Source of the DNA: Chrysoperla carnea
Lineage: Eukaryota; Arthropoda; Insecta; Neuroptera; Chrysopidae
Assembly: GCF_905475395.1 (NCBI RefSeq)
Contig: NC_058339.1
Coordinates: 49,795,172 to 49,859,171, forward strand
DNA length: 64,000 bases
Direction: 5' to 3'
A program made the position numbers and the translations under genes. Shown here piece after piece: positions 2,369-64,000 of this stretch. The notes under the pieces are model-generated. The model searched no databases and was not told the origin of the DNA. It saw nothing but the letters and a program-made list of their open reading frames with translations. Position 1 is the stretch's first letter, and each line of letters opens with the position of its first letter.

Positions 2369-2470
2369 CTGCAATGAAGTACATTCTTTCAATATGTCAA
2401 TAACATGAAAAATTGTTTGTAAACTTTCCTTTTCCGCCATACAAGTTCTGCATATTTTCTCAAATTTCAT
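2369..2470 (-). CDS. Z0: ZAD zinc-finger gene, exon 1 only (rest off the left edge)
   Basis: On the minus strand an ATG at 2470 opens 34 codons, starting MKFEKICRTCMAEKESL and ending ILKECTSLQ, followed by the donor CAG|GTAAGT at 2368. This is the ZAD N-terminal half with its first CxxC (CRTC), in the same frame and with the same phase-0 donor as exon 1 of every other gene in the cluster. It is shorter than its neighbours because the start lies nearer the CRTC. No exon 2 is found down to position 1, where R1 and the long-TIR element lie, so intron 1 exceeds 2.3 kb or the remainder has been lost. With exon 1 alone, whether the gene is intact is unknown. Confidence 0.7.
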
Positions 2471-3690
2471 TGTTACTTTTATCACTTATAGTTTTTTTTT
2501 ACATATTATTATTTATACCTAGTAGTTTGATTACTTTTTTGGCGTCGCGTTATTTACAGGTAACTTAAGTCGTAAACAAGAACAGTGAACACTATAAAAA
2601 GGCATGGAATGCATATAGATAAAATATGGTAAAAGCAGAGAATATATCGGTAAAATATAGCCTCTGGGTAGAAGGAAACTGAAGGACTGGAAGCTTAAAC
2701 GGATGTTTTTTTTCAATGTACTTCGTGAGGGTCAGAGAGAGGAGTCACCGAGTCGCGGTGGTATTTACTGGAGCAAAACTTCCAATTTGTTAGTACTGGT
2801 ACACAAAGCTGTATAATGGCTAACATTTCTAATGGATTTATCCAAAATTTTTTTTAACTTTGCCAATAGAATTTAAAAATAATTGTTCACCAAAAAGTTT
2901 CTAAATTTTAAAAAATCTAATAAAACGGTTTTCTACTTTTATCAATTATTATCTCGAAAAATAATAAAATAATATTTAATAAAAAACCATTTTTGGGTAT
3001 GTCGAGAGTTTTTCCTTTAGAACAAGTAAACTGAAATTGGAAAGAAAATAAATAAATAAAAACTTGGACGAATCCATAAAATATTGGTTATATTAAAGAT
3101 TGCTTCTCTGAGATACATACAACTCTGATATTTTGTATTATTATTGTTTAGAAAGAAAATAGAGAAAATATACTTTCTGCCTCATAAAACCTAAAAACTT
3201 GAAATTCACGTAAAACTGCTATCTCTGTCTGTATGTTTCGAGCATCACAAAAACAATTTGGCCAATTTGATGAAGTTGAATTTGTTTAAAAGCTTATGAT
3301 TTGACTTTAAAACGCTGGTGTTCAAGCGGGTGGTAAGGAGAACAAGCGGAGTGAAGTATATTATGCGGAAGTATGTTTTAAAAGTTGGTTTTGGCTATAC
3401 TGCTTGCGAAATGAGCTCTGAGGCCAAGGGCGTAAACCAGTTTGTAGGTCGCCTTATTGACAAGGTCGAAAGTGCCTCCCACGAATGTGAATAAAGCTGG
3501 TGTAAGAATGAAAGAGGATCTCAGTGAGAGCAAGAAGAGTGAAATGATTTTAAGGTTGTTATTGACCAGAGAAGCAAGCAAGTAAAGCTAGTACTATATT
3601 ATATAAATTACATTATGTGCTACAAGGATGAAATTACACAAAAAATCAATATAATTAAAATATGTTACTTTTATTTTCATATTAATTATA
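2471..3690. other. Intergenic stretch between Z0 and Z1
   Basis: This is AT-rich DNA with no supported gene. The open frames on either strand here (for example around 2531-2716 and 3378-3581) have no recognisable domain and no resemblance to the cluster exons. An AATAAA signal for Z1 on the minus strand lies at about 3670-3675. Confidence 0.6.
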
Positions 3691-6600
3691 TTAAAATCTG
3701 GGAGTAAATAAATATCCAATTTTAACTTTTGGTGGATCTTTAATATTATGTATTCGTTTATGTTTTGCTAGAATACTTGATGATGCGTACCTCTTAGGAC
3801 AAATATCACAAATAAATGGTTTTTCTCCTAAAAAATTGTAATTGTTAGCTAAATATATGTCTAATTAAGACATTTGTAAGGTAATCCAACAATGATTTTA
3901 ATTTTATAATGCTGAAAAATAATATGGAGATAATAATCAAATAATTTACAAAAATAAACTATACAAAAATTCGCGCTATAATAAGTTAACTGACATAAGT
4001 GACATTATTGCGCTATTAGAAATTAACAAGATCATTTTTATTTTAATAATTCTCATCATCCAGAAGCATTTCTAATATTGTTAATTGGAGGCTAGAATAG
4101 CTTGCTGTTTTCGTAATAATGTTACCAATTTTCGAGCTTACGTATAAAATGTGCGCGGTCCTTTTTTCATTTTAGAATTTAAAGGTTTATTTATAAAAAA
4201 GACACCGAAATTTAAAATCAGTTTTATGCTTGGACTACCTTAACTAAAAATCAATAAATATTTACCAGTATGGTTTCGTTTATGTATAGTAAGAGATTGA
4301 GCTCTTGCAAATGCTTGATCACAAATTGTACACACATACGGTTTATCACCAGTATGAGTTCGTAAATGTAATTTTAACTGATCATTTTGTATAAATCGTT
4401 TATTACATATTTGACAGGCGTAAGGTAATTCTCCAGTGTGCCGTCTCATATGTATTGTTACATAATGTGCTTGTGTAAAACTTTCACCACATATTGTACA
4501 CAAAAACGGACGTTCTCCGGTGTGTGTCAATATATGCCTTCGAAGCATAAATAAATGTGAAAATGCTTTTGGGCATAATTTACAACTAAATTTTTTCACA
4601 TCACTATGTGACCGCATATGTGACGCCAAACCACCTGTATCTACAAATCGTTTACCGCATACTGGACATATTTCCGGTTTTTCACCTACAGAAAAAAGAA
4701 AATTTATTTGATTTAATACACAAGCTACCCAAAACTGATATGTGCAAAGTTGTGAAATGAGATAAAAATTTGAAATCAATTACAATTGATTTAAAAATAT
4801 AGAACATTTTAGGGAAGGTACAAAAAATTTTCCTAAACTAATTTTAATTCAAAATGGGTCTTACATAAAATTGGAAGCTATGGAAATAATGTTTAATCAT
4901 GTTATTATAATAAGTGATTATCAGATACTAAGTAGTAATGCCGGGACACCTACACCTCATCTCAAATTCAAAATAGTTCATTGAATGAGAAACCCAAAAT
5001 ATCTTATAAGTAATTTGCCAAATCGACCATATCTATTGGGCATGTTTTTAGCTATAGTTTCGCATAAAAGTAGCTTATTCAAACCAGATATAAGAACTAA
5101 AAACTAGTAAATAGCAAAGAAACACTTTATATTAGAAATTTATTTCAAAACCTATTTGGCTATTTGTTTCCAAAAACAAATAGACAACTTACAAAAATAG
5201 AAACATACTCTCTCAAGATATACATATTCTGCTTTCCATTTCTGGTAAATGTATTCGTTTATCGAATATTTTACGCTTTGGTTCTCATGGTAAATCCCAC
5301 AGCCTAATTTACTTTAAGCTTAAATCCACGAGTATAAAAGCCCTCCGATTTGGATATATCGTTTAGATAAACAAGAGTTTTTAGAACAGTGTGTCGACTT
5401 AATGATGAGTCGAGCTAATGCGTATGCAGTGAAAATTCATATGAAATTTGGATATTATATACCTGTGTGTACTCGTAAATGTCGAATACGTCCACCTGGT
5501 GCAGCAAAACGTTTATTACAAACATTACACTTGTATGGTTTATTAGTCATGTGAATATTAAGATGTCTTTTTAAATTGTTTATATTTTCGAAACTCTTAA
5601 AACATTTTGGACACTTTAGTTCTTTAAATACTTGATGTGTAATCATATGAATTTCTAAATCTGATTCTAGCTCAAAACTGCGTTTGCATTTTGGACAAGG
5701 TAAGCCTTCTTGAATAGCATTTATATCTTTTCTTTTTAATTTTGCTTTTTTATTTATTTTTAATTGTTTTCTTGTTTTATTTTTCAAAATTTCACAATTA
5801 CTGTTCGATTCATTCATCTCTCTTTCTAAGTTGAATGTATTTATTTGGTTGTTGTTTAAGTTTTCTGAGAAATTATTGTCTTGCTTAATTCTATTAATTA
5901 AAGGCTCATCTTCACTATCATCATTAAAATTATGAAGATCTAAATCTGTGTTACTATAAGAATTTTCTGATTTTAAATCGATGTCTGTTTCCTTGTTTAA
6001 TGATTTATTATCTTCAAATTTAACAGAGTCTTTTAATTCGTTCAATGTTTTATCCGAAATTTTACATTGCTTTCTGAATTCAAAAGCATTGTGTAATCGA
6101 TTAAGACATTCCAAACATATTAACTCTGGCAAACCATCGCCCATGTTTATCTAGAATGAATATTTTGATGATTAATTTAATTGTGATTTTAAAAATTTAT
6201 AAAATCTACGCTTAAAATTTTAGTACCAGATGTTTTAAAGAAGTAATAAAGAATATAAATCTTTAATTTTAGCTTTCTTTAAATATTTAACATCTAAAGT
6301 TTTTTTAAGTTATTTATTTTAAAAAATACCGAGATTTTTTTTTGTGGAGCATTTGAGTTTTTAAAGCAAATAGTTTTATATTTATAAAATAATTCTAACG
6401 TTTAGTAGAAAATTTAAAGGTAAGATCTCAGGGAACAATGGCAAAAATATAAAAAATTATTATTAGCCAAATCTTGGCAAAGAAAGAGTTATTTCTATCA
6501 AATGTTTATTTGTTTATAAATTAAACAATTGATTTTGTATAAACAAAAATGAAACAAAACTACTAGTGAAACAACAACATATAGTAATATTGAATCTAGG

Positions 6601-7920
6601 ACATATCTATTCGATCTACCATCTCCACCATATTCTTATGTTTTAAAAACTATGTTCTCGACTCTCTAATATCATATAGTCTAGATTCTAGAATATTATT
6701 TACAATTTTTACCTGAAAATACGAACTCTCTGTTGGTTAGTATGTTTGTAGTTGGAGATATGATAAAATTATTGTTTATAGAGTTAGAGAGATGTATATA
6801 TGATTTACTGATGGTCATGGTAACCGTCTGCTGAGCCTTAAATATGATAGTAGGTAATGTTCCAAGCCACCCTGTAAGGTTTCTCGAATTTCTATGTGTC
6901 ATATTCCCCACCCCCCCCCCCAGGGGGAGATTTGAAAAACTGTCACTAAGTTATGGTTCTGGAAACTGTCTGCTTGTTGGATAATTCATTAGATGTGTTT
7001 CTGAACAGTCATCCTGCAAAGTTTGAGGTCAACAAGTCGTCCCATTCCCGATCATTATGCCAAAAAACCGAAAATGTCGTTACGCGGTAAAAAAATTTGA
7101 AGTGATGGTTCTGGAAACTGTGTATAACTTGTTTGATTGTGTTGAGGATGTCAAAAGGATCAGGAAAATATGTCTGGCAGAAAAGCAAGTGGTCAGTGGT
7201 GGGATATTCCCTGGGGTGGGAATATGACACATAGAAATTCGAGGAACCTTACAGGGCGACTTGGAACATTACCTACTATCATATTTAAGGCTCAGCAGAC
7301 GGTTACCATGACCATCAGTAAATCATATGTACATCTCTCTAACTAATATACACCTGGTTGAGTATACCCAGCAGTTTTGACATGTCCTAGTGTAAGTATT
7401 CCACAGAAACCAAACCGTTTAATTCAAGCAGTTAAAAACGTAAATCAACTCCTAGGTAAATTATTGCGGGATGTGTAATTTCTCTTCAGACATAATTGAG
7501 TCTTATATCATTAGGCTATTTTTCTAATAAGAATAGTAATAAGGATTTGTTTAAGAAATCAAAACAAATAAAGATATTCAATTAAGTCGAATATTTCCCG
7601 GAGATTTGTCACCTTCGTATGACAGATTGTTTTCAAGGAGGACACAGAGGATCCGTTGAAATTGATCTAGATGCCAGAGATCCATTTGTGGTTTCTTATG
7701 TTTTAGTATTATTATTAAGTCGGATATTTTCGGAAGACTAACTATTCCAAGTATTTAGAAAACTGGACAATAGTAAGATTTCTAATTATTAACAACTTAC
7801 TTGAACTGATGTGCACTCTTTTAATATATCGATAACATGGAAGATAGTTTGCATATTATCTTTTTCAATAACACAAGTTCTACAAATTCTTTGGAATTTT
7901 ATAATTGTATTCTCATCCAT
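3691..7920 (-). CDS. Z1: ZAD-C2H2 zinc-finger transcription factor, 9 fingers
   Basis: The exons (minus) are 7801-7920, 5463-6150, 4266-4685 and 3691-3827, giving 454 residues with phases 0, 1, 1. Exon 1 gives MDENTIIKFQRICRTC; exon 2 opens with I-N-M-G-D-G-L-P and ICLEC, completing the ZAD CxxC pair. The linker has IDLKSENS-like and SEDEPLINRI motifs. Fingers F1-F3 are in exon 2, F4-F8 in exon 3 and F9 in exon 4, with a tail of 15 residues (KDPPKVKIGYLFTPRF type). ZAD dimerises and the fingers should bind DNA in the nucleus. F3 has G instead of D at helix position 3 (APGGRIRH), unlike its paralogues. Intron 1 (1650 bp) holds a foldback element. Z2 is its closest relative, to the very C-terminus. 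I see no frameshift. Confidence 0.88.
6748..7350. mobile_element. Foldback element in Z1 intron 1
   Basis: Two ~140-160 bp arms, about 6748-6908 and 7205-7350, are imperfect reverse complements (for example GGTCATGGTAACCGTCTGCT on the left against AGCAGACGGTTACCATGACC on the right) around a ~300 bp centre. Both arms abut short C or G runs at the inner edge (CCCACCCCC at 6909 and GGGGTGGG at 7211). No transposase is seen. This is a MITE-like hairpin; transcription of Z1 would copy it into pre-mRNA as a long stem. Confidence 0.75.
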
Positions 7921-9075: not shown

Positions 9076-11770
9076 TTAAAATCTGGGAGTGAATAGATAT
9101 TCCGTTTTAACTTTTGGTGTCTCTTCAGTATTATGTATTCGTTTATGTTTTGCTAGGCTACTTGATGATGTGTACCTCTTAGGACAAATATCACAAATAA
9201 ATGGTTTTTCTCCTAAAAAAATTGTAAGAATTAGCAAACAATATCCATTTATGACAATACGTAAGGTAATAGGGTATTATCGTTAGCCATAAATAAATTA
9301 TGAAATTTGAAAAAAGTTAAAATTTATGTAAAAATATACCTAAATATTCTGATTTCGAGTCATAAAAGCACATTTTTCTTTTAAAATATTAAAATTAAAA
9401 ATCGTAATTTTTAAACTGTATATCACGTGACCTAAAACGCGAACAAGCCTTGTTGTGATGTCATATCGGTATGAGCCATAGACCATCAATTAGTTCAGTG
9501 TAGACAGTTGGGTATAGTATATACATAGATAATAAGTATTTATATTTATTATAATCAGATGTCTATGAATATATCTGTCAAACTTATTTGTGTTATTTCG
9601 TGTAATGATACCGATATTACGTTATCAAATTGGATGCCCGCGTTTTTGACAATTTAAAAAAGGTTTAAAATTTAATTTTAGTTTTTGGCAAGAAAGCGTG
9701 TATATTTTTCCGAAATAAATTTTTGGTGGCGTTTTATTAGCAAAATCGACATTTTGAAGTACTTTTTCAAAAATAGTTGAATACCCTACAATGATTTTAA
9801 TTTTATAATACTGCAAAATATTCATATTTACCAGTATGGTTTCGTTTATGTATAGTGAGGGATTCAGTTCTTGCAAATGCTTTATCACAAATTTTACACA
9901 CATACGGTTTATCACCAGTATGAGTTCGTAAATGTAATTTTAGATTAACATTTAATATAAAACGTTTATTACATATTTTACAGACGTAAGGTAATTCTCC
10001 AGTGTGCCGTCTCATATGTATTGTTACATAATGTGCTTGTGTAAAACTTTCACCACATATCGGACATAAATATGGCCGTTCTCCAGTATGTGTCATTGTA
10101 TGTCTTCGAAGCATAAATAAATGCGAAAAAGACTTTGGACAAAATTTACAACTAAATTTTTTTACATCACTATGTGTACGTAAATGTGATGATAAACCAC
10201 TTGAATCTGCATATCGTTTGCCACATACTGGACATATTTCCGGTTTTTCACCTATAAAACAATAAATTTTTTATTTAAAAAAAAATATTTAAAATACATT
10301 ATAATTTTGAGATATTTAAACGCAGTTTTTTGGCGCTCTCTGTTGATGACGTATAAGTACGTGATCTGTCAATTGGTGACAGTTCAATGTATAATTTACA
10401 CTTTATAAAAATGAATTTACAACACAGAATTTTTAAAAAAAGCCGTAGAATAGTATAATTTAATGAAATACCATATAAAATGTAAGTAATTATTATCATA
10501 CAGTATTTCAATAAATTTGACAAGCCTGTACTTTGATGTCACGTCCGTATAAAAATTTGAATTTCCGTTTTAGAAATTTTTAAATGCCCTCACTGAATTT
10601 GTACTTTTATTAATTAATTTTATGTAATTAAAAAGATATTAATTACTAAAATAATGGTTTAGTTGAAATGTCCAGTCGTGAAAGTTACAGAAGAAAAATA
10701 TTTGAACCAAATTTAAATTTCATGAATATTCCCTATTTTATTATCATAATTTTTAATTGAATACCTGTATGAACTCGTATATGACGATTTCGATCACCGG
10801 ATCCTGCAAAACTTTTTGGGCACAAATGACATTTATAAGGCTTATTAGTCATATGTATGTTGACATGTTTCCGCAAGTTTCTTATATTATCAAAAGATTT
10901 TAAACATTTTGTACACTTGAGTGTATCAGTTTGTTGATGTATAATCTGATGGACTTCTAAATCTGATTCTAATTCAAAACATTTTTTACAGGATGTGCAA
11001 GGTATTCCATTAATTATTGTTGTATCATTCTTTTTATTTGTTTTAGATTTCACTTTTTGTTTTACTGTGCCTTTTTTATTTCGTTTCTTTTTATTGTGCA
11101 CCAATTCATCAGTGTGATTCGTTTCTTTAGAATTCCTTTCTGTTTGAATAAGATTCTCTGAATTTTTGACATCAGTAACTTTTTTATCTTTAGTTAACCT
11201 TTTAATAAGAGGTTCATCTTCACTAATATCTTCTTTTACAGGCTCATCATCACTGTTGTCATCATTATCCGCATTAGATGTTTCATGAAAATCTGAATCA
11301 TTTAAATTATCTGATGTTTCCGATTTAATTTCAAAAGTTGATTTAAAACACTCAGTTTTAACAAATTTAATCTCTTTCGTTTTGAAATGTTCTCTTAGGG
11401 TTTTATCTGAAGTTTCACATTGTTTTCTAAATTTAAATGCGTTATTTAAACTATTTACGCAATCTGTGCAAATCCATTCGGGTAGACCATCACCTATATC
11501 CACCTGGAAGTTAATTGCATTTTAATAGATATAAACTACTGGAAAAGTAGTGATAGGGAGAGCTTAAACCTAGCTCTACGCATTTTTATATTAATGTTAT
11601 TTTTATTGCCTTAAAAACTAATAAGTTTAATACCTTGTTAAATTACTTACTTGTATTGAAGTACACTCTTTTAACATATCAATAACATCAAAAATTGTTT
11701 TTAAATCATCTTTTTCGATAACGCAAGCTCTACATATCTTTTGAATCGTTAAATCAAAATTCTTACTCAT
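9076..11770 (-). CDS. Z2: ZAD-C2H2 zinc-finger transcription factor, 9 fingers
   Basis: The exons (minus) are 11651-11770, 10765-11503, 9832-10251 and 9076-9212, giving 471 residues. Exon 1 reads MSKNFDLTIQKICRACVIEK, with CRAC in place of the usual CRTC (both cysteines kept). Exon 2 begins V-D-I-G-D-G-L-P with ICTDC. The linker is strongly acidic, with FEIKSETS and two DEP motifs (NSDDEPV and SEDEPLIKRL), then a Lys-rich block before F1. F4-F9 are very close to Z1: F6 is identical at all helix positions (Q, H, Y, I), and the C-terminal tail ends YLFTPRF as in Z1. F7 differs (L, V, N, L against Q, D, Q, L). Intron 2 contains a truncated TA-type element. Z1/Z2 look like a duplicate pair. The frame is intact throughout. 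Confidence 0.88.
10275..10733. mobile_element. R3 element, left-truncated, in Z2 intron 2
   Basis: This is homologous over its length to the complete copies at 33518-34086 and 57965-58539, including the block TTTTTTGGCGCTCTCTGTTG and the right terminus CATGAATATTCCC followed by TA. The left ~100 bp and left terminus are missing. It lies wholly inside an intron. Confidence 0.75.
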
Positions 11771-14697: not shown

Positions 14698-17600
14698 TCA
14701 ATGTAAATGGAATGCAGCTATTAATTCATATGATTTTCCATCTTTGTGTGTACGTTTGTGTTGTGATAAGGCACTGGATGATATATATCTTTTTGGACAC
14801 ATGTTACATGCATATGGTTTATCACCTAGAAATAAATAAAAATATAGTTCGCATCCACTGATTTCATAGCGTATATTTAATAGACTTTTTTTTAAATATT
14901 CTTTTTTATTTCGAGCATTAAGTCAAAAAATTATTCAAGACAACATGTTTAACAATGGTTAAAAGTATTTGGTTTTTTTTTTATTTGTAGTAAAATTTTT
15001 GACCCGAAACAAAAGGTAACCCGTTTAAAAATAAATAGATTAGTTATATTTATTTTCAAACTATAATCAAGTAAACACCTTTCAGTTGATTTATCTACGG
15101 TCACTTGAGTATCTAACAATACTGTACTCGAAATCAACTACGAGCCTTTGGTCACGTAATTAGGAAAGCGCAACATTTTTGTATACTCAGGACATTTAAA
15201 ATTAAATATTAAATTTCGAGATGTGATAATTTATAATAGTTATTTCACAATTAAAAAAAAAAAAACAAAAAAAAAAAACAAACTTTTAAATGCGACGCCG
15301 CGATTATCACGCGATGAACGAAGAGTTAAGTCTACATTTTATAACTAAAGAATAAAGATACTTACCAGTATGTGACCGCATATGCCTTACAAGAGATTCC
15401 GGTCTTGCAAAAGCTTTCTCACAAATTTTACAAACATTGGGTCTGTAACCAGTATGTGTACGTTCATGCATTTTCAATTGATCGCGTAATCTAAATCGTC
15501 TGTCACACATTGTACATAAATATGGGAGTTCTCCAGTATGATTACGCATATGCATTGTGACATTATATGATTGTGTAAAACCTTTGCCACATACATTACA
15601 TAAGAATGGTTTTTCACCGGTATGCGTTAACATATGTCGCCGTAACATAAATAAATGTGAAAATGATTTCGTACAAAATTTACATTTAAAGTCTTTTCTT
15701 TGTGTGTGTGTTTTCATATGTGACCACAATCCACTAGTGTCACCAAACGTTTTTCCACATACAGAACATATTTCTGGTTTTTCACCTATAGCAAAAATAA
15801 TAATATAAGTTTTAAAAATTTTATTGAAGCTCTTGAACAAGACTATAGTAGTTGGCAGTCATTTCAGAATGACTGGAAATTTGAGAAACTATTAGCAAGG
15901 CTATTTTCAGAGGTTTTATTTATTCATTGAAAGGAATATTCAAACGGATCGTTTCCAGGTCGGTCCATAAATTGTTTTAGTTTATGTTTAATATAAATAA
16001 TTTTAAAGATTTGGTATTCATTTTCTAAATCCAAATTATCGATCTCAAAATAATACAGTACCTGTATGTACTCGTAGGTGTCGAACATAGTAACTTGATT
16101 CAGTGAAACCTTTGGTACAAATGGTACATCTATATGGTTTAATAACCATATGTTTACGTACATGCCGAGTGAAACTTCTTCGTGTTTTAAAACTTTTCAC
16201 GCATTTTGTACAGTTTAAAGTTTTCTCATGCAAAATCATGTGTAGTTCTAAATCCGATTGTAATTCGAAACATTCCTTACACTTTGGACATGGTGTACCC
16301 TCTTGTGGAGTAACCTGAATTTTTTCTTTTGACCTCTTTTTTGAAGTAATATTTTGTTTTTTACGATTTTTCTTTGCCTTAGCTAACGAATCATTTTCGC
16401 TATCTACTTCATCTAATTTTTCATTCCTTTCATCAGACGATTTAATAGCATTAACTTCAGTATTTTCAGATTTAACATCAATACTCGCGAATGTATTATC
16501 GTCATTTTGGTTTCGTTTTTTTATTCTTTGTGACAAAGGTTCATCCTCACTGTCATCGTCACTGTCTGTTATATCACAAGTATCATTCAAATCAAAATCA
16601 TTTTTTGTAAACGAATTTTCTGATTTAATATCTACTTCGACTTCTATGTTGCTAACATTATTATCTTCAAATGATGGTGGTTCATTTGATACTCCATTTT
16701 CCTCGAATTTAACTGATATTTCTCCAATACCCCCTAATTGTCTTAAAGTTTTATCCGATGTTTCACATTGTTTTCGAAATTCAAAAGCGTTGTTTAATCT
16801 ATCAAGACATTCTGCGCATATTAATTCTGGCAATCCATCACCCATATTGATCTTAAATTAAAAATTAAAAAAACTTATTTGGACCTGGATAACAAAGATC
16901 TTAAAGGGGTCTAGGATTTTTTAATTTTTATTTTACTCAGTTTCAAATAGCCATGTTGAGACAGTAAATTTTCCAAAAAGCCAGGTTTACAACCTGGATA
17001 ACAAAGATCTTAAAGGGGTCTAGGATTTTTTAATTTTTATTTTACTCAGTTTCAAATAGCCATGTTGAGACAGTAAATTTTCCAAAAAGCCAGGTTTGTG
17101 AAGAAGAAAACTGAATATTTGTAAACAAAAGTGCCGCAACTTGTCCAAACAAATATTCAAAATAATTTCCCTACTATAAAGATTATTGAGCTAAAAAGTC
17201 CCAATTATAGAGGTAAATATCGACAATATCGAAAAAGTGAAATCTAAGCTATACGGATTTAATTATTTCCAATAAAAGAGATGCAAAAGTGCCACGACCT
17301 CATTGTAATCTTAACTGCGTTTTTAAACGCAGTTTTCTCGAAACTCTTAATTTTTAAAGCAATATAACTTTTTTTTTGGCATTTTAAAATCAAGAATTTC
17401 GAGAAAATTAAGCTTAAAGCCCAATATCTAGTGACAAAATGAAAACAAATCTATGGATACATACATTTTAAGAATATATCAGTTTCCAATAGACCTTTAC
17501 ATTTAAATTACGATTCATTATTGTTTCGTACAGTCAGTAAGAATCAGACAAAGATACAAAATATTTGTTATTCATTTTATCAAAATTTTATCCGAAACAA

Positions 17601-33466: not shown

Positions 33467-33517
33467 AAATAAATAGCTGGGGCGAATAGGGGAAATAGCA
33501 ATCTATGTACTATGATA

Positions 33518-45012: not shown

Positions 45013-45241
45013 TCTGTTTTAAAATTTAATATTTTCTTTTTTACTTATTTCTCAAAGCATAAATTCTACTTATAAAAATGGAATACAGGTTATGTTAACC
45101 ACAGACCACACTTAAGTTAAATCATTAGAGGTACAATAACATCGTGAATAACATAGAGACGTAAAAACATTGGAAACGTAATAATTGAATTATTGACTGC
45201 TAAAAAAGATATCGAACAAGTGAAAACAACTATATAAAATA
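45013..45241. other. Upstream region of the intronless C2H2 gene
   Basis: This is AT-rich DNA. The block TTATTGACTGCTAAAAA (45190) recurs at 45419 on the other side of the hAT-like fragment. Confidence 0.5.
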
Positions 45242-49628: not shown

Positions 49629-49642
49629 AAAGTACATAAACA

Positions 49643-50880: not shown

Positions 50881-50988
50881 TAATATAATAATAATTTTGA
50901 ATGGAATACGCAAAGTAGAGCTGCCTATTCGTTCAAATAAATTTTAGTAATTTTTTTATTATTGAATAGTTTAAATATTTATGAATAA

Positions 50989-52245: not shown

Positions 52246-55200
52246 TTATTTTTCTTTATTATGTGTTCGCTTATGTTGTGATAAATGTTTACTTGACATA
52301 AATTTTTTTTCACATAAATTACAACAATAGGGTCTTTCTCCTAAAAAAATTAATAAGAATTAATACATATTAAATTGTTTTTCAAGTATTGTTAATAAAT
52401 GGTGTAATGTAATAAGTCGTTAATTAAGATCCTGCTATTACTAGAAACAAACGACTAAAATCAAGAAAATATTGCTTTTATAAATTTTGAGCATTGAAAA
52501 CCTTGAAAAATAATTTCAGCTTCATATTCGTACGAATAATATTTTTTTATTAATTGTAGGTATAGTGTAAGAGGTAGCAACGTTACAAAACAGTGAATTT
52601 CAGGTCGACTGGATTTTTTCTATTTCTTTTTTATTATTGAAATTTGATATAAAAATAAAGTGGTAACAGAGAGCAGTGTCGTTTACTGCGTTAAGTAGGA
52701 GTGCGCATTATTCCTCTGCAGGTAAAAATGGCGATTTTAAAATTATTTAAACACAATTTTTGAAGTAAAACTTCTTTAGACACACTTGACCTGGAGAATG
52801 TATGAATAGAATGTTAATGTTACGAAAATGTATGATCAATCTTGAGAGGGAGATATAAGTGAAAATTGAAAGAGAGAGAGAGTTACGTTTCAATACATAA
52901 CAACATCCATGTGTGATTTTACTAAACTGTTTCCCGCCACGGCACTGATAAACTTTATAAGGTTTATGTATTACACCAATCCGGACGAAGTGTTCGGATT
53001 ACGACTGAACGTGTCGGACTACTGAATGATCGGTTTACTGAGACTCTCCTGTATTTACTATTAAATTTTATTTTACTGATTGCTCCTAAATTATTGAACA
53101 TTGGTAGAAGTATAAGAGGAAAGAACTTTTTTTACAAAACACCCCACAAATATTCTTGAATATTACCTGTATGTGTTCGTGTGTGTATAACAAGAGACTC
53201 TGGTCTAGCAAAACTGGCATCACAAAGTGTACAAATATATGGCTTTTCTCCTGTATGTGTATGCATATGAAATTTTAATTGTTTATTTGAACTAAAACTC
53301 TTATCACATTCTGTACATGAATACGGACGCTCTCCAGTATGTTTTCGTTTATGTACTGTTAAGCTGTAGCATTGACTAAAACTATCTCCACAAATAGTAC
53401 ATAAATAAGGTTTTTCACCAGTATGCACACGCATATGACATTGAAGTTCTGATGGAAACAAAAATGATTTGGAACAAATTGTACAAACAAAACTTTTTAT
53501 ACCAATATGGTACTTCATATGTGCTGATAATCCACTAGAATCTGGATATCGCTTACCGCACGATGAGCATATGTATGGTTTTTCACCTGAAGTGTAAAAA
53601 TATAAATGTCATGACAACGTTTGACGAATATACAAAAAAATATTGACGGAACTTTCGAATAAGGCCTTTCTCCAATGAGCTTCAAATTTTGTTACTAATT
53701 TCTGTTACTATATTATAATTTTAAAGTTCAAGGTTGTTGTCTCCCAACACCATTGTAGATATCTCTCTTCAACCACCAATAGTCTAACTGTAGTCTTTTC
53801 TATTCAAAAATAAAATTGATTAACCTTTCGTTAGTATATCTCAACAATGAAACGGTCAATAATGTCGGTTTTTCTTTTTTTAACTAGGTCAGTCAGTTTT
53901 CTGAAAATTCCCGAAGGTTAGTTTTTTTTCAGAATTAAAGAACACACAACCTCTCCTATGCTCTCATCGTGAATTATATGAATTTTAATTAAATTTATCT
54001 CGAATTAGGTCAATCGACTTCAAATTTTTATGATAATTGTATTATAATAACCTTAATAAGTATAATAACAAATGAAAACTAACAATTGACTGAGTTAATT
54101 GTTAAAATACCATGCATAGACAGTGTTGGTTACTCTATCACATTACACATACATACATGTCACACATACATAATCTTCTGATATTCCCATATAATACATA
54201 CTATACAATTTAGGCCTAATTTGCGTCCTCACGGGTAAACAGTGATGTTTACGAAAAAATGTTTCAAACAAAAGTTGGTTATTCTTTTATAAGAAATATT
54301 TTTTACAATAAAACTTTGGTTCTATCTCTAACGGTTTACAAGATGTGTCCTACGGACCCAAGACCCAATTGACCTATGTTGCTCATTTACGAACTTGACC
54401 TCATTTTTTACGTCCTGAGTACGCTGTAAAAATTTCAGCTTGATATCTTTTTTCGTTTTTGAGTTATCGAGTTGACAGACGGACGGACGGACAACCGAAG
54501 ATCGACTAATTAGGTGATTTTATGAACACCTATAACAAAATTTTGTTCGTAGCATCAATATTTTTAAGCGTTACAAACTTTGGACTAAACTTAGTATACT
54601 TTGCATATTGCATATATGCATGGTATAAAAATTAGAATTTTCTGATACAATTCTCATAGCGAGACAATAGCCATGAAATTTAATATTTTTCAAAACAATT
54701 TTCAGCATAAGAAAATCTAAAAATCTAAAACCTAAACCCAAACAAATTTTAGGATGATATGAGTTGGTTTGGGTACCAGAAAATAGTGAAGTTTATTTTT
54801 GGCATGTTTTGAAAATATTTAGAAGCTTATGTAAAACGGCCTTAAACGAACTTCTCAACAAAATATTATTATTATATATACCGGTATGAATTCTTAAATG
54901 GCGATTTCGATCACCAGCTCCAGCAAAACTTTTATCACAAAACTTGCATTTATATGGCTTGTTAATCATGTGTGTGTTAAAATGTCGTTTTAAACTGTGC
55001 GAGTTATCAAAAATCTTTGGACACTTAGGACAACTAAAATTGTCAAATTTTTGATGTTTCAACATATGCATTTCTAGATCTACTTCAAATTCAAAGTATT
55101 TATCACACTGAGAACATGGGAGTCCATCTGTTTTGTCGTCTTTGGTTTTCACACTTAATTTTTGTTTATCTTTTTGTTTCGTTTTTTTATTAGATTTATT

Positions 55201-55970
55201 TTTTCTCAAAATTACAGGCTCATTGTTACATTGATCAGAGATATCACAATCGTTATCTTCATGAACTGAATCATTGTTTTCGATCTTTAATCTTTCACTT
55301 AAAGGTTGGTCATCAAAATCAAAAGACGGACTATTATTCACTGCGTTAGAACTTTTATTTTCAAAATTATTATTTTTTTTCTTAGAAATATCGAAAATAG
55401 TTTTAGTTGCATTTACATTAGTTTCAGAAAAACCATCTACTTTACTTAGCTTTGTTTTCGCAACATTAAGTATATCATTAATTTTAAGTTTATTATTTTC
55501 ATCACATGTATCCGAGTTATCATCATTTATATTATAAGAACTCTCAGATTTAATATCGATATCGTTTATATCTAAATTTTCGGTTTTATGTAATCGAATG
55601 TTTGAAACTTTATTTTGAAATATAACAGGTGTTTTGTCAATTCCTCTAAGTTGTAACAAAATTTTTTGAGATACTTCACATTGTTTTCGAAATTCAAATG
55701 CATTATTCAGTTTATTAACACAATCAAGGCAAATTAATTTTGGTAAATCATCCTCTATGTCAATCTAAAATTAATTTTTGTTTATCAATAATAAAACATT
55801 TTTGGTTTATTAATTAAAGGTATCATTGTACTTACTTGTATTGAAGTGCATTCTTTTAATAAATCTATAATGCGAAAAATAGTTTGTAAATTATCTTTAT
55901 CTGTCAAACAGGTTCTACAAATTTTCTGAAAATTTATTTGTAAATTTGGTAATCGTAAATTTTCGTTCAT
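52246..55970 (-). CDS. Z11: ZAD-C2H2 zinc-finger transcription factor, 9 fingers
   Basis: The exons (minus) are 55836-55970, 54882-55764, 53167-53586 and 52246-52340, giving 510 residues. Exon 1 starts [20 protein letters not shown]. Exon 2 opens I-D-I-E-D-D-L-P with ICLDC and has no early Met, so an ATG-based gene call would miss its ZAD half. The linker has IDIKSESS and [16 protein letters not shown]1 has [18 protein letters not shown]3 is AGAGDRNRH. Exon 3 is nearest Z4 (F4 identical), but F7 carries SSNKQLKF and F6 QCYSLTV. The last exon ends THNKEK. Introns 2 and 3 are 1295 and 826 bp; intron 2 contains a full R1 copy. A stop-overlapping AATAAA follows the coding region. The frame is intact. 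Confidence 0.88.
54066..54632 (-). repeat. R1 dispersed repeat, full-length copy in Z11 intron 2
   Basis: It runs from the CAATTGACTGAGTTAATTGT end to the CATATATGCATGGTATAAAA end. It lies wholly within the intron, in the same strand sense as the gene. Confidence 0.8.
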
Positions 55971-57321: not shown

Positions 57322-60245
57322 TTACCTTCCTTTATTATGTGTTCGTTTATGTTGATATACATCTTTGCTTGATTTAAAAGTCTTTTCACAAATCTTACAA
57401 GAATACGGCCTCTCCCCTAAAATAAAATTAAAATCAATGAATTATAGTTGTATTTTCAATAAAGGGTTTTTTTGTAATATTAGTGAAAAACAATTAAAAA
57501 ATTTTTGCTAATTTAACTAAGTGATTTGGATAACAAACTACCTTAAATTGTGTAACAACATTTTATTTTTGAAACACATTTTGAAAAATAGTAGACTGTG
57601 ACCGAAAGAGCAATATCTTTCTATTTTCCTTGGATAGTAAAAATATTTTATGGAAGACATTCCTCCACAATAAGTTACACTTAGATGGTTGGTTAATTAG
57701 TTTATATTGGCTGTCTACAAAGGACTCTTAGGCTATAGAGCCCATTCTCCTCAATCATTTTCACAGGCTAAGTGCATCTCCTTCATGCATATACCATGCA
57801 CTACACCAGCCTATCACAACTATTAATTAAATTCATTTTTGTTGTGACGGCAGGAATCGAACCCGTTAACCTAGGCATACCGCGAACGGAATTGGTTACG
57901 TTTTAACATATTGAGTTTTTAAGTAACTTACACTTACTAATAACAAATACTGACGTAGTTAATAGGGAATATTAATTAATTTTTTTATATTTTTAATTCA
58001 TTGTTTATACCGTTATAACAAAGTAAAAAATATAAATACTGCTTAAAAATGCTGTATTTAATTGTAAAAAAATATTTAAAATACATTATAATTTTGAGAT
58101 ATTTAACGCAGTTTTTTGGCGCTCTGTTGATGACGTATAAGTACGTGATCTGTCAATTGGTGACAGTTCAATGTATAATTTACACTTTAAAAAATGAATT
58201 TACTACACAGAATTTACACTCGTTATTATTAAGTTTTCTAATAAAAAGCCGTAGAATAGTATAATTTAATGAAATACCATATAAAATGTAAGTAATTAAT
58301 ATCATACAGTATGTCAACAAATTTGACAAGCCCGTACTTTGATGTCACGTCCGTATAAAAATTTGAATTTCCGTTTTAGAAATTTTTAAATGCCCTCACT
58401 GAATTTGTACTTTTATTAATTAATTTTAAGTAATTAAAAATATATTAATTACGAAAAAAATGATTTAGTTGAAATGTCCAGTCATTAAAGTTACGGAAGA
58501 AAAATATTTGAACCAAATTTAAATTTCATTAAAATTCCCTATTCAAATAATCGAATATTTATCTCACTGCATTAAAAATCGTATAGGGGGTTTTTTTTTC
58601 TAAAAATTTTATTTTCTAACACTATATTGTCTGAAACTCTAAATGTATACAGTATATAAATCTTACCAGTATGTGATCGGGTGTGCACAACAAGATAATC
58701 TGATCTTGTAAAGGCCATATCGCATATTTTACACACATATGGCTTTTCACCTGTATGAGAACGCATATGAACTTTTAAATGTTTATTTAAGAGAAAACTC
58801 TTTTCACATTCTGTACATGGAAATGGACGTTCTCCTGTATGTTTTAGTTTATGTAGTTTTAATCCGTTCGAATGACTAAAGCTTTTTCCACATTCTGTAC
58901 ATAAATAAGGTTTTTCACCAGAATGAACTCGTATATGACTTTGAAGATCTGACGAAAACATAAATGATTTAGAGCAAACTGTACAGATGAATTTTTTAAC
59001 ATCAAGATGATATTTCATATGACGTGATAATTTACTTGAATCTGCAAATCGTTTACCACATGATGAACATATGAAAGGTTTTTCACCTAAATTAAAAAAC
59101 AAAGACTGTTACTTTTTTTTTGAAACTTTTTGTTTAAAATACATCTAATTACCCGTATGAATTCGTAAAATATGTCGATTACGATCACATGATCCTGCGA
59201 AGCTTCTATCACAAACATTGCATTTGTACGGTTTGTTAATCATGTGGGTATTAAAATGCTGTTTTAAATTTTTTTCGTTTTCGAAAGTTCTTGAGCATTT
59301 AGGACAAGTATTATCATTATATTTTTGATGTTTTAGCATATGAATTTCCAAATCTACATCTAATTCAAAACATTTTTTACATTGTGGGCATGGTAGTCCA
59401 TTTTGAATTGTATCATCATCTTTTATCACCTCCAATTTATTCTTGTCCTTTTGTTTACTAGATTTTTTATTACCTTTGGTACTTTTTTTACCTTTATTTT
59501 TTCTTAACTTTACAATTTCATCACTACTTTTATTGGAAACTTCACAATGGTTGTCTTCAGGAGTTGATTCACTGTTTTCTAACTTTAGTCTTTTGTTTAA
59601 CGGTTGCTCATCAAGGTCAGAAGAAAGTAAACTATTCTTCCCAATATTAGTATTTGTACTATCTAAGTTAATATTTTGTTTCTTTGAAGCATCCAAATTA
59701 TTTTTATTTTCGCTTGTTTCAATAAAATCATCTTCATTATTAAACGGTTTAATATTCACATAACTAAATACACTGTTAATTTTATATTTATTGTTTTCAT
59801 TGCATGTATCGGAATTATCCTCGTTTATATTATAAGAATCCTCGGATTTAATGTCGATTTCATTTGCTTCTAATTGTTGAGAATTTAAACCATTGCTTTC
59901 AAGTTTAACAGGCGTTACTCCAAATTCTCTGAGTTGGGACAAAATTTTTTGAGACACTTCACATTGTTTTTTAAATTCAAACGCAGTATTTAGTTTGTTA
60001 GTACATTCAATGCAAATTAATTTTGGTAAATCGTCCTCCAGATCAATCTAGAAAATAAAGCCAATTTTTTAAAAATTAAATATTAATGTGTTGATATTTA
60101 CTATACTTACTTGTATTGAAGTGCATTCTTTTAATAAATCTACAAGACGGAAAATTGCTTGTAAGTTATGTTTTTCTATTAAACAAGTTCTACAAATATT
60201 CTGAAAATTTGCTTGTATATTTGATAATCGAATATATTCATCCAT
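57322..60245 (-). CDS. Z12: ZAD-C2H2 zinc-finger transcription factor, 9 fingers
   Basis: The exons (minus) are 60111-60245, 59153-60047, 58667-59086 and 57322-57416, giving 514 residues. Exon 1 starts MDEYIRLSNIQANFQNICRT. Exon 2 opens I-D-L-E-D-D-L-P with ICIEC; it has no Met until MSQ-like positions past the ZAD, so ATG-based calls lose its start. The linker has PVKLESN, IDIKSEDS and DLDEQPLNKRL, then a very Lys-rich block (KNKGKKSTKGNKKSSKQKDK). F3 has one extra residue between the zinc histidines (H-I-L-R-I-H), a tolerated but unusual H-x4-H spacing in this cluster. F4 is SSKLSRH, F5 FSSDLQS; F6-F8 are close to Z9. Intron 3 (1250 bp) holds an R3 element and a SINE-like stretch. The frame is intact. 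Confidence 0.88.
57700..57905 (-). mobile_element. Probable tRNA-derived SINE in Z12 intron 3
   Basis: On the minus strand there is a tRNA-like 3' half with a perfect box B (GGTTCGATTCC, near 57849-57859), preceded by TATGCCTAGGTTAACG and followed by a ~110 bp body unrelated to a tRNA. No complete tRNA cloverleaf is present. The body faintly resembles about 33230-33370. It is antisense-neutral intronic DNA. Confidence 0.5.
57965..58539. mobile_element. R3 element, complete copy in Z12 intron 3
   Basis: It is 575 bp, flanked by TA on both sides (57963-57964 and 58540-58541). The ends, GGGAATATTAAT and ATTAAAATTCCC, are slightly decayed from the 33518 copy. The interior is nearly identical to the other copies. 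Confidence 0.8.
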
Positions 60246-62952
60246 TTTGTTAGAAATTTTAATTTTACGACTAGTTTTTTATAAGTGTTAACGTCTTGAC
60301 CCATGAAAAATCAACATATTGGGTGGGTGCATTCAGAGTATTCCGATTTCCGACAAATTAAGACTAATTTATGAATGATATAAAATATAATTAGTTAACG
60401 TATGATTACTCAGAGACTCCGTTTAAAACAAGATATTTCATTTAGTAATATTTACTGATTGTAAAATCTATCGCTAGATCAAAATTCAATAGAATTCATT
60501 GGAAGAATCTGTCAATATTTGACTGTCGCTCATCACGCGTGACGTGGCCATAAAATCGAAAAGCTATTTCTAAACATTCAGGGTTGTCAGATTGGGCGTT
60601 TTTCCACAATTTGGGCTATTTTGAAGCTAGCCTATACGATATTATTTAAGAATTAATAAATCTTTTAAACTTTACTTTTCGATCTATTTCCATAGACATA
60701 TACTTTTACACCCGCCACCTGCCTTTTGCATCACATATGTATCAGTAAATCGTTGCACTTTTCTATCGAGATTGGTATTTCCAATCTATATCTATATCCA
60801 TTTCAAAAATTACAATAATTTATGTCTTCGTGTCTAAAGAACATAATTTGTGCAATTTTTTATATATTTTTATATAATCTCACGATTAACTTATTTTTAA
60901 AATTATATGGAAATACCATTTTTTGTTATTTATCACTTTATTTTCAAAAATAAAATATTTGAAAACATTGAGCGGTTTTTTTTGTAACGGCAACCCTATA
61001 AACGTTGACTTATTAGTTTGAATGCCCCTTTTTAAGAAAAATTTAAAAGTTAAAGCTATTTTTAATGACAAGATCTTAGCCCTACTAGTGTGGCAAAAAG
61101 GGGGAAAAAATTCAAAATTGCAGAGAAAACAGTTTATTTTGACGTATTATTGTGGAAATGTTATCGTTAAACTAGTACAATATGAAAACATGTTTTGAAA
61201 ATAAATGATTTTTTAATTATCTAAATCTTTTGTTTTATTAATAATAATATGTTTTGTTTTTAATAATTTGTTTACTTACACTCAGAATATTGTTTAGTTA
61301 TGTTTCTTTTTTTAATCGTTAGATACAGTCTTTCTTAAATGGAAAATTCAACAGTTAAATTTAACTACCCATCAGATAAAATAAAAAATTCGGCATTATA
61401 TTGCCCTAGACAGCCACTTATTTACTTATTAACTCTAAACAATTTTCGTAAATACATGGGAAAAAATTTTCTCTACCGAAATAATATAAGTTAAATATAA
61501 ATAAATTATTATAAATAATAAACTAGTATAATTCAAAAAATACAACCTTTCAATATTCTGCAAAAACTTTAAATAAATTTTTTTCTACTAATATAAATAT
61601 ACTAGTTAAATATAAATAATAAACTAGTATAATTTAAAAAATGCATCTTTTGAATATTCAATATTTTGCAAAAAGTTTTAATAAATTGTCTGATCAAATG
61701 TAAAATATTTTAATTAGAATAATTAAAAAGCAAGCTATTATTTCCCAGCCAATTTTTAACCTGAATTCGTAAGACTGCCCCAATTATATAATTGGAATCT
61801 CAGATCATTTAAAAATCATTTTTATATTATTATTTTCTTCCCCGAAAAAGAAAAAAATTTTGGCTACAGATACAAAAAAAAAAAAAATTAATTTATTCAA
61901 TTTCTCGTATAAAACAAGAAAAAACTCTTGTGAGGAATTTTTTTTCACTAATGTTAAAAAAAATTAAATGAAATAAAACTATATTATCTGACATCGATGA
62001 TATACATTCAATTATATAAAAATAAATTACTAAACATGTAAAGTAAAATTAAAACTTACAAATACATCCATATAAAAATTAATGATAAAAACAAATAAAA
62101 TGATAATACGAATGTAATACTAATTAATTTGAACTTTGTATTTAAAACACGATGCACTGCTTATTAATACTTTCCCAGTACATAAGTTATCATTAAATAG
62201 CTGGTAAGAAATAGAGAAAAACTTTAAATTCGAAAATTTTTCTTCATAAATAATTAACAACTTTTGTTCAAAACATTTTTTTGTTCTTCACTTCCTCGTT
62301 ATTTTTTTAACCAGTAAATCCAGCGCCGTTTTCGAGAACTCAAGAATGTAGTCTAATTCAGTACTGTCAAATGTATGTTAGAAACAGACAAAGTAGTTCT
62401 ACCGAATAAAAATATTTTAGATTTTTAAAGGGGGGAGGGAGTTATATTGAAATTTGTCAAACCTATATTTAGCTTTTTGTACGATAGACCCATTATTTGG
62501 AGTATCTACCAGAAGGAGGGCTGAGTGACATTTTGGAGTAGTTATTTTAGGCACCTTGAAAACTAGTTTAATAATTCTTCTGCAATAGCTGAATACGAAG
62601 TGAACCTGGTTGGCCTTTTAAAAATATTAATTTTTAATGGCAAAGATTGTTGTGTTCAAATTTCAAATTATCTCAAATATGTTTTTTGGATTTTTGGCAA
62701 AATAAATTTTGTTTGAGGATATGATAATTTCAAAACGCCTCAAGAACATTTTTTTTTTCGGAAAAAAAAATATTTAGAAATTTGTGAGTTGGACCAATTT
62801 CTCAACCTAGTTCACTTCGTGTTTAGCTATCGTAGAAGGAGTATTAGATAAGGTTTCAAAGTACTGATCCAAAATATTACTCAGCTCTTTTTTCTGTGCT
62901 GTATAAACACAAACTAGAAATATACATTATCCTGTGGATTCATGTTGTTGTT
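60246..62952. other. Long intergenic stretch between Z12 and Z13
   Basis: About 2.7 kb of very AT-rich DNA without a supported gene. A loose two-copy repeat of ~115 bp (AATAATAAACTAGTATAATT at about 61516 and 61626) is visible. The only open frame of note (minus, 60886-61071) has no recognisable domain. The region is less repeat-loaded than the rest of the window. Confidence 0.55.
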
Positions 62953-64000
62953 TTAGTATGTTAATTTATTATATCCCAAATAGATTGGTATTTTTTCCTC
63001 TTTTTCTTTATGATGCGTTCGTTTATGGGCTGCTATATTCTTATTAGATATAAAAGTCTTATCACAAATATCACAACTGTACGGTCTCTCACCTAAAATA
63101 AAATTAATAGTAGTTAATAATGATTTAAAATAATTTCAAATATTGTGACTTTTTTACAATTTTTTTCATAGTGTTTTTATTGATAAAAATGCGTAATTTT
63201 CGAGTTACAGACCTTCTACTCGACCTATATTTTCATAAAAAATTAACAAAAAGCATTTCTGTTTTTCATGAAAAAGGTCTATTAGTCCTTAGTCCGATAA
63301 ATGGATCGGGAGTCTGGGTTTGGAAATCACAAAATGTGAATTCTCATTCACTTTTTTATCACGATTTAAAGATCCGAAAACGTACGAAATATGATACGGA
63401 TTTTGACGAATGAAAAAACGTCATAGAGAAGTAAGAAAATTCGTTATCAACGAAAATAAAGATTATTTTATTGTTCTGGTAAAAAATTTGATTTGAAAAC
63501 CATATAATATTATAGTTTGGGCTTTTATAAACACTTTTTGACTATTGACATTTTTTATCTTACCTCATTATTTTCGAAATATAAGCGTTTAATAATAATA
63601 AATTTAAAGGATATTTATAAATTTTATCTAAAAAATATTTATATGTGCAAATAATAATATCTTACCAGTATGGGTTCGAACATGTATAATCATATTATGT
63701 TTTCTACCAAAACCCATATTACATATTTCACACACAAACGGTTTTTCGCCAGTATGAGAAAGCATATGAGATTTTAAATGTGTTTTAGAAAGAAAACTCT
63801 TGTCACATTCTGTACATGGAAACGGGCGTTCTCCTGTATGTTTTAGTTTATGTATTTTGTAGTTATCAGCGTGACTAAAACCTTTTCCACATTCTGTACA
63901 TAAATAAGGTTTTTCACCAGTATGTTTACGCATATGAATTCGATGCTCTGATGAAGACATAAATCTTTTAGAACAAACTGTACATTCGAATTTTCTAATA
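62953..64000 (-). CDS. Z13: ZAD-type C2H2 zinc-finger gene, 3' part only
   Basis: The visible exons (minus) are 63666 to beyond 64000 (exon 3) and 62953-63092 (exon 4). Exon 3 shows most of F5 (KFECTVCSKRF, helix SSSEHRI), F6 (HADNYKI), F7 (LSKTHLKS) and F8 (GRKHNMII), then the usual CATACTG|GTAAGA donor. Exon 4 gives F9 (YSCDICDKTFISNKNIAAH) and a longer tail (HHKEKEEKIPIYLGYNKLTY). F5 and F6 lack the Leu at helix position 4 (His and Tyr instead), a change in the hydrophobic core not seen in its paralogues. F8 is also the most diverged. The F6/F7 framework resembles Z9 and Z12. The ZAD lies off the right edge and is inferred from the cluster. Intron 3 carries a dispersed repeat. Confidence 0.8.
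63135..63283. repeat. Dispersed repeat shared with 27.0-27.16 kb, in Z13 intron 3
   Basis: The match to 27010-27157 is nearly base for base up to TGAAAAAGGTCTATT. A plus-strand 80-codon frame running through and beyond it is not conserved at 27 kb, where the sequence diverges, so it is not called as a gene. Confidence 0.75.

Follow-up and report, generated by a model that had tools for sequence, protein, structure and literature searches.

What kind of gene expansion sets copy after copy of one zinc-finger design side by side in the green lacewing Chrysoperla carnea, and do its members follow changing DNA targets? A first-pass annotation of a 64,000-nucleotide stretch of chromosome 3 (the window) had described fourteen minus-strand copies of one ZAD-C2H2 gene, all in one direction, in a cluster cut at both window ends and so larger than the window. 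Our gene models (B0–B13) recover the fourteen ZAD-C2H2 genes, 12 lying entirely in the window and one cut at each end, and extension into the flanks yields a tandem array of 24 genes over 116 kb (C3:49,761,906-49,878,018). The single direction holds for the window only, as the whole array comprises 17 minus-strand and seven plus-strand genes, the latter (six at the left, one at the right) all lying outside the window. All 123 C2H2 motif matches of the window are minus-strand, compared with a chance mean of 0.17 (maximum 1, strands combined) in 30 first-order Markov simulations. Dispersed repeats are present in the array region, and a search for RNA families returned no matches at gathering scores.

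Gene models and domain identity

The genes share a four-exon design, in which exon 1 encodes the N-terminal half of the ZAD, exon 2 its C-terminal half, the linker and three fingers, exon 3 five fingers and exon 4 a single finger. Extra three-finger blocks occur in six array copies, and finger number, which for B8 is the count before its frame break, ranges from 7 to 15 across all 24 models and from 9 to 15 in most. All four parts are open in 21 of the 24 array genes. GT follows exon 1 in every gene with an identified exon 1 (23/23), and AG precedes both exon 2 and exon 3 in 24/24; the exon-2 donor was set as a model requirement and provides no independent test of the models. Gene modelling did not find exon 1 of C1, so the ZAD model of this gene is incomplete. 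The 300 bp upstream of 23 genes contain no strong common motif, the top 8-mer being AT-rich and present in 9 of 23 (2.6 expected).

From the left edge of the window, all on the minus strand and with exons given from first to last, B0 (2369–2470, its left end being where the first-pass cluster begins) consists of exon 1 alone, encoding the ZAD N-half, and its remaining exons lie left of the window. Nine fingers are encoded by each of B1 (3691–7920; exons 7801–7920, 5464–6150, 4267–4686 and 3691–3828; 455 aa), B2 (9076–11770; 11651–11770, 10766–11503, 9833–10252 and 9076–9213; 472 aa), B3 (14698–18611; 18492–18611, 16063–16851, 15367–15786 and 14698–14826; 486 aa), B4 (20175–21993; 21859–21993, 20945–21793, 20366–20785 and 20175–20306; 512 aa), B5 (23912–25631; 25503–25631, 24555–25436, 24070–24489 and 23912–24007; 509 aa) and B6 (27673–29726; 29592–29726, 28315–29520, 27829–28248 and 27673–27768; 619 aa). 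Introns 2 and 3 of B6 are open in frame by chance, and a relic exon-1-like stretch lies near 27158–27220. B7 (31476–32940; 32806–32940, 31903–32739 and 31476–31838, the last exon reading to a stop) encodes 445 aa with seven fingers. B8 (34481–36353) retains exons 36219–36353 and 35104–36147, the frame of its exon 3 (34685–35035) is disrupted, and it is probably a pseudogene or a sequence error. Nine fingers are again encoded by B9 (37724–42193; 42059–42193, 41152–41988, 39425–39844 and 37724–37828; 499 aa), B10 (46578–48747; 48613–48747, 47680–48534, 46739–47158 and 46578–46676; 503 aa), B11 (52246–55970; 55836–55970, 54883–55764, 53168–53587 and 52246–52341; 511 aa) and B12 (57322–60245; 60111–60245, 59154–60047, 58668–59087 and 57322–57417; 515 aa). 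At the right edge, B13 (62953–64000) is represented by exon 4 (62953–63093) and a partial exon 3 from 63667, with exons 1 and 2 to the right of the window. An intronless minus-strand open reading frame (ORF) at 43642–45018, with 12 fingers and no ZAD, is a zinc-finger gene from a different, dispersed family and stands outside the ZAD array.

The first-pass annotation had proposed a profile check against PF07776 (zf-AD) and PF00096, and both profiles agree with its domain calls. PF07776 is matched through its second half by eight of nine window ORFs scanned (E ≤ 0.01), and seven of these reach the Pfam cut-off, ORF 27673–29520 falling below it (24.7 bits); the ninth, ORF 43642–45018, has no match. 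When exons 1 and 2 are joined, PF07776 matches all 19 ZADs submitted from the family of 27, and one of these scores 52.8 bits (cut-off 28) over positions 1–74 of 75. Across the 19 joined ZADs C3, C6, C42 and C45, which we take to be the zinc-binding cysteines, are invariant. PF00096 is found in 9/9 ORFs scanned, and no KRAB domain appears among Pfam matches at E ≤ 0.01 in the nine ORFs and 19 joined ZADs. Among solved structures, a profile built from the 19 ZADs picks out chains 7pok (LD15650p, E = 4.5e-8) and 6fp5 (CG2712, E = 2.2e-4) and, weakly, 7po9 (E = 0.065), all three presumably Drosophila ZAD structures.

Probable descent of the array from a single gene

All 27 family ZADs fall in one clade that includes none of 40 other C. 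carnea ZADs, sampled from at least 132 such ZADs in the genome. The UFBoot support of this clade, 89, is moderate and based on about 70 residues, a length that drops to about 40 in C1 and in 20 of the 40 other ZADs. Intron positions are common to the array genes. B6 and B8 are younger duplicates, about 91–93% identical in DNA over stretches of 1.4 and 0.5 kb, as are B13 and B14 (88% over 1.1 kb). The first-pass annotation had proposed a lineage-specific expansion. Together, the ZAD clade, the intron positions and these younger copies support tandem growth from one ancestor within the C. carnea genome, an expansion that may be lineage-specific. Sampled members of other ZAD arrays often lie near one another in the tree, and some lie beside genes from other chromosomes.

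The array would have grown by DNA-level duplication of one ancestral ZAD-C2H2 gene, with three-finger units multiplied by block duplication and part of the array switched in orientation. Exon-scale gene conversion or partial duplication would also have acted between copies; B5 and B10 share a 626-bp tract, 96.2% identical, that covers exons 3–4, and outside it their amino-acid identity is 64% in the ZAD and 40% in the linker. The median NG86 dS of exon 3 is 0.86 over 210 pairs, which indicates that the array does not consist chiefly of very recent duplicates. Two family relatives lie 10.7 Mb from the array, and the DGLPEL-type subfamily (B0–B3, C1, D1 and D2), which has a support of 100 in both trees built, occurs within the array, at the right-hand end and also at this distant site.

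One further family copy, an old one on chromosome 2 (C2:30.16 Mb), is intronless, with an open frame of 544 codons from stop to stop (534 from the first Met) in which the four exon equivalents are fused at the predicted junctions. That it lacks all three introns and lies on another chromosome suggests retroposition; the 700 bp downstream contain no clear poly-A tract. Its exons joined at the predicted junctions imply past germline expression, so that at least one ancestral family member would have been transcribed in the germline. A literature search returned nothing combining Chrysoperla, zinc finger and ZAD, and no title among the matches listed concerned Neuroptera ZAD genes.

Selection and the rival explanations

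Codon models fitted to 24 sequences, with exon 4 and the linker left out and branch lengths shifted little from the nucleotide tree, give an ω of 0.02 at structural finger positions, 0.18 in the ZAD and 0.29 at other finger positions. At contact positions −1, 2, 3 and 6 ω is 0.44, equal to that of the non-contact helix positions 1 and 5 (0.44). Contact ω spans 0.24–0.66 by finger, from 0.24 in finger 1 and 0.27 in exon-3 finger 1 to 0.66 in exon-3 fingers 3 and 4, with branch lengths and κ fixed. Under the same settings M1a places 40% of contact sites at ω = 1, and M2a detects no positively selected class among the 32 contact codons of the 24 sequences (2ΔlnL 0.00 relative to M1a). Contacts do evolve faster than the remaining finger positions (2ΔlnL 30.44), with a point estimate of 1.23 at a single contact site, but an ω of 1 at contacts is rejected (2ΔlnL 150). 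The cruder pairwise NG86 estimates for exon 3 in close pairs (35 of 210 pairs with dS < 0.6, among 21 genes) are higher, at 1.02 for contacts, 0.75 for helix positions 1 and 5, 0.38 for other finger positions and 0.06 for structural positions. We prefer the codon model, because NG86 is inferred to underestimate synonymous change in this AT-rich sequence. These estimates place the ZAD and the fingers under purifying selection, and contacts may have undergone relaxed or episodic change.

The linker has the highest ω in 11 of 13 pairs (0.32 to 0.81, plus 1.99 in B5–B10), the pairs being hand-chosen, sharing sequences and in one case involving D1; in B6–B8 and B13–B14 the fingers are highest. The B5–B10 value is discounted, since the 96% tract shared in exons 3–4 breaks the common-branch assumption. 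Overall, the sequence evidence suggests that the ZAD and fingers are constrained and that the linker evolves faster in most of the pairs compared; it gives no clear indication of an arms race at DNA-contact residues.

Such an arms race, with KRAB-ZNF-like silencers each following a diverging transposon or satellite through adaptive change at contacts, would account for the pairwise contact ω of 1.02, the faster contacts with their near-neutral sites, the differing finger counts among copies and the dispersed repeats of the region. The 1.02 falls to 0.44 once the codons are modelled on the tree, however, and with contacts no faster than helix positions 1 and 5 and no selected class in M2a, the first-pass suggestion of diverging repeat or satellite targets is not supported. 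Contact residues are also identical in 6 of 12 fingers between A1 and B15, and published work places positive selection on Drosophila ZAD-ZNF genes chiefly in the linker, not the fingers (PMC7655104), and reports that dipteran ZNF numbers do not follow retroelement numbers (PMC10547256). We consider this account unlikely. A 306-bp tandem repeat was considered as a target satellite and rejected, being a dispersed short tandem repeat (at least 334 matches, counted in 40 scored of 2159 candidates) with nothing linking it to the proteins of the array.

The broken frame of B8, the shortened B7, C1 without an identified exon 1 and the relic stretch near B6 would suit a mostly inert array of birth-and-death leftovers, retained by chance with few functional copies; we judge this very improbable, as 21 of 24 genes keep four open parts and splice sites despite the median exon-3 dS, and structural finger positions are strongly constrained (ω as above). 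A stronger rival, though still one we doubt, is an ancient pan-neuropteran array with each copy having a 1:1 orthologue in distant lacewings and no recent lineage-specific expansion. It fits the high synonymous divergence of most copies and the spread of the old DGLPEL-type subfamily, whereas B6/B8 and B13/B14 are younger duplicates.

Proposed function and known relatives

We lean moderately towards a reading in which the copies descend from one ancestor by DNA-level duplication and encode nuclear, dimeric DNA-binding factors with a SUMO-modified linker, acting as repressors or architectural proteins. One C2H2 finger covers about 3 bp of DNA, so nine fingers cover about 27 bp; the copies would be nuclear proteins that dimerise via the ZAD and have putative DNA sites of about 27 bp. 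In 20 of 27 members the first-finger contacts read L-x-D-I; contacts vary most in exon-3 fingers 3 and 4. Near-fixed fingers alongside these variable ones suggest that the copies would have part of their DNA site in common and differ at its centre. The linker is acidic and has repeated ψ-K-x-E motifs, which occur in 26 of 27 linkers and total 68, compared with 12.6 ± 3.4 (maximum 26) in 1000 shuffles, the counts being drawn from related sequences that are not independent. This linker would carry SUMO and recruit chromatin co-factors, and the copies would together act as related repressors or architectural proteins, active in the germline or early embryo. Direct HP1a binding as in Oddjob is not indicated, as the 27 linkers hold one PxVxL motif (B13, PPVKL) and two looser matches (A5 and A6).

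A more elaborate proposal, which we hold to be quite improbable, is a modular recognition set of 24 SUMO-regulated dimeric factors, in which most copies would place near-fixed outer fingers on a common DNA core and differ mainly in the middle ones (exon-3 fingers 3 and 4), reshuffled by exon-scale gene conversion. If true, the 24 factors would cover sites with like ends and unlike centres, for instance the variants of a single repeat or regulatory-element class.

The array is a large, mostly intact case of an already known kind of gene expansion. The Drosophila Oddjob-Nicknack cluster has five genes and the Cucoid clade clusters four to five each; these adjacent ZAD-C2H2 genes have intron positions in common and are read as DNA-based tandem duplicates, and intronless, dispersed CG9215 is read as a possible retrocopy (PMC9810180, PMC7655104). 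The lacewing array resembles these clusters in its adjacent genes and common intron positions, as the chromosome 2 copy resembles CG9215, but holds 24 genes in 116 kb where the complexes so described hold four to five. Three-finger block duplication is seen in the lacewing array. Clusters are likewise described for tetrapod KRAB-ZNF genes and cyprinid FiNZ-ZNF genes, which encode an N-terminal domain before many C2H2 fingers (PMC10547256); in the lacewing proteins this domain is a ZAD rather than KRAB or FiNZ. In that account positive selection was favoured in four of seven FiNZ clades, in contrast to the lacewing contacts. The mostly intact 24-gene array offers an independent case in which to ask whether expansions of this type track changing DNA targets. 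Drosophila Kipferl (CG2678) shares with the lacewing copies a ZAD and finger arrays; the Kipferl ZAD forms dimers, and chromatin occupancy is lost when this domain is deleted (PMC9531945).

Extent and gene anatomy of the cluster

With the flanks included (60 kb on the left of the window, 40 kb on the right), the whole cluster comprises 24 genes spanning C3:49,761,906-49,878,018 on chromosome 3 of the C. carnea genome (559,487,470 bases, 337 contigs). From left to right these are A1-A6 (plus strand), B0-B16 (minus strand) and C1 (plus strand). The first-pass annotation had described fourteen ZAD-C2H2 zinc-finger genes running in one direction and had predicted a cluster larger than the window. 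The larger extent is confirmed by the flanks, and the single direction holds within the window but not beyond it, where A1-A6 and C1 are found on the plus strand. The fourteen genes correspond to B0-B13 and are borne out by both C2H2 pattern and PF07776 (zf-AD) matches. The minus strand of the window contains 123 C2H2 finger pattern matches and the plus strand none; 30 first-order Markov simulations of the window gave 0.17 matches with both strands summed, and a maximum of 1.

Eight of nine scanned ORFs match the C-terminal half of zf-AD (Pfam, E ≤ 0.01), although the match at 27673-29520 scores 24.7 bits, under the curated cut-off; the only ORF lacking a match is ZAD-less. Of 14 places examined, 13 have the N-terminal half on an exon of its own further upstream; the fourteenth, near 27158-27220, is a relic. 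When the halves were joined, all 19 ZADs submitted to the PF07776 search that had been proposed gave a match, and the member displayed in full covers positions 1-74 of 75. The identity of the cluster as ZAD-C2H2 genes is firm.

Exon 1 ends in the middle of the ZAD in phase 0, and exon 2 continues with the second half of the ZAD, the linker and the first three fingers; five more fingers follow in exon 3 and a last one in exon 4. A GT donor follows exon 1 in all 23 genes in which this exon was found (during modelling of the 24 cluster genes, exon 1 of C1 was sought and not found), and an AG acceptor precedes exons 2 and 3 in 24 of 24 genes each. All four parts are open in 21 of the 24; B7 has 7 fingers and terminates within exon 3, and the exon 3 reading frame of B8 is broken. 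Finger numbers of 12 or 15 result from added three-finger blocks in exon 2 (a second block in A1, A3, A4, B15 and B16, a third in A5), and finger exons are additional or unusual in A3, A6 and C1.

Common ancestry and an intronless relative

We built a ZAD tree of 67 sequences, 27 from the cluster family and 40 from the 132 other ZADs listed, using the second ZAD half alone for 20 of the 40 outsiders and for C1. All 27 family members form a single clade that excludes every one of the 40 outsiders (UFBoot 89). Within the C. carnea genome, this supports the tandem expansion contained in the earlier proposal of a lineage-specific expansion. The genome-wide PF07776 search (150 of 484 candidates scored) returned at least 150 ZADs, with at least 14 groups of three or more members (neighbours within 60 kb). 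The present cluster is the largest group among the ZADs listed, with 15 there, and is a large new case of an already known kind of gene array. Sampled ZADs of other arrays are often neighbours in the tree, some mixed with genes of other chromosomes. Additional arrays lie on chromosome 2 at 9.45-9.49, 23.05-23.11, 72.83-72.89, 77.56-77.64 and 95.66-95.72 Mb; their listed ZADs span almost the whole domain in a single open frame, in contrast to the present cluster and an array on chromosome 1 (C1:127.64-127.76 Mb), where an intron splits the ZAD.

When exon 3 of B12 was searched against the genome, 150 of 3499 candidates were scored and 26 places exceeded 149 bits, the next best scoring 142. They comprise 23 of the 24 cluster genes (B7 is missing), the genes D1 and D2 (C3:39.04-39.05 Mb) and one gene on chromosome 2 at 30.16 Mb. 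The latter (L023, G000:C2:30159537-30161169) is a single open frame of 544 codons stop to stop, 534 from the first Met, with 12 fingers, as in A1, A3, A4, B15 and B16; it adjoins A1, B15 and B16 in unrooted trees. Its four exon equivalents are fused at the predicted intron sites, supporting the cluster gene models. Because it is intronless and on another chromosome, this copy is most plausibly a processed retrocopy, which implies germline transcription and splicing of an ancestral family member. The 700 bp downstream contain no clear poly-A tract.

Exon 3 has a median NG86 dS of 0.86 (210 pairs, 21 genes). Higher similarity links B6 and B8 (about 91-93% identity across 1.4 and 0.5 kb) and B13 and B14 (88% across 1.1 kb). 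B5 and B10 share 626 bp spanning exons 3-4 at 96.2% identity, whereas their ZADs and linkers have only 64% and 40% amino-acid identity, a pattern suggestive of either gene conversion or a partial duplication.

Selection on the fingers and the linker

Pairwise NG86 omega across 35 close pairs is 1.02 at the contact positions (-1, 2, 3 and 6), 0.75 at helix positions 1 and 5, 0.38 in the rest of the finger and 0.06 at structural positions. A tree codon model of 24 sequences (21 cluster genes, D1, D2 and the chromosome 2 copy; A6, B7 and B8 excluded) gave 0.44 for contact positions (32 codons from 8 fingers), 0.44 for helix positions 1 and 5, 0.29 for other finger positions, 0.02 for structural positions and 0.18 for the ZAD. 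In this model the contact rate exceeds that of other finger positions (2dlnL 30.44) and is below neutral (2dlnL 150). No positively selected class was detected among the 32 contact codons (M2a vs M1a, 2dlnL 0.00); M1a assigns 40% of the contact sites to omega 1, and the point estimate for one site is 1.23. By finger, contact omega is lowest in the first finger (0.24) and the first finger of exon 3 (0.27), and highest in the third and fourth fingers of exon 3 (0.66). The contact residues may reflect relaxed or episodic change, and the suggestion that the family tracks diverging satellite targets finds no support from the sequence.

The linker is the fastest part in 11 of 13 hand-chosen pairs. 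The motif psi-K-x-E, the SUMO consensus, occurs 68 times across 27 linkers vs 12.6 in shuffles and at least once in 26 of the 27 (B5 has none), suggesting that the linker could be SUMO-modified; a loose [DE]PLxxRL-centred pattern occurs in 14 of the 27. The focus on linkers is common to Drosophila ZAD genes, for which Kasinathan et al. (PMC7655104) report positive selection focused on linkers between D. melanogaster and D. simulans. PMC9531945 describes the Kipferl ZAD as promoting antiparallel homodimerisation, with chromatin occupancy dependent on the domain. By this behaviour and the gene anatomy, the cluster proteins would be dimeric DNA binders with long sites and a regulatory linker, whose role, judged by known relatives, would most likely be in repression or chromatin architecture.

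Other elements in and near the window

An intronless 12-finger ORF without a ZAD, with 84-bp finger repeats, lies on the minus strand at 43642-45018. It belongs to a dispersed family with at least 147 matches (E ≤ 1e-20, from 92 of 2156 candidates scored), several with in-frame stops; among the best 50 other places, 23 are on chromosome 5 and 4 have a listed ZAD exon within 10 kb. At 49641-50884, a 306-bp tandem repeat of about four copies with internal inverted repeats is perhaps part of a mobile element. The unit has at least 334 matches (40 candidates scored) and forms short arrays at many places, with chromosomes 2-5 among the matches listed.

Elsewhere, some 1.1 Mb before chromosome 1 ends, there is a cox1-like gene whose frame is open with the bacterial code (L025, G000:C1:138886126-138887466), with 36-39% GC across the first 3 kb and adjoining ORFs that by eye are bacterial in appearance; the region may be inserted bacterial DNA, perhaps rickettsial, or a contaminant.

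A repeat of about 580 bp occurs in both orientations at 33515-34093 and 57961-58543 and in the left flank (C3:49781372-49781955), with roughly 90-93% identity among several places in the cluster. Intron 1 of B0 holds a 522-bp inverted repeat (193-714 and 1680-2201) whose arms are 100% complementary and enclose 965 bp, and which looks like a recent fold-back insertion.
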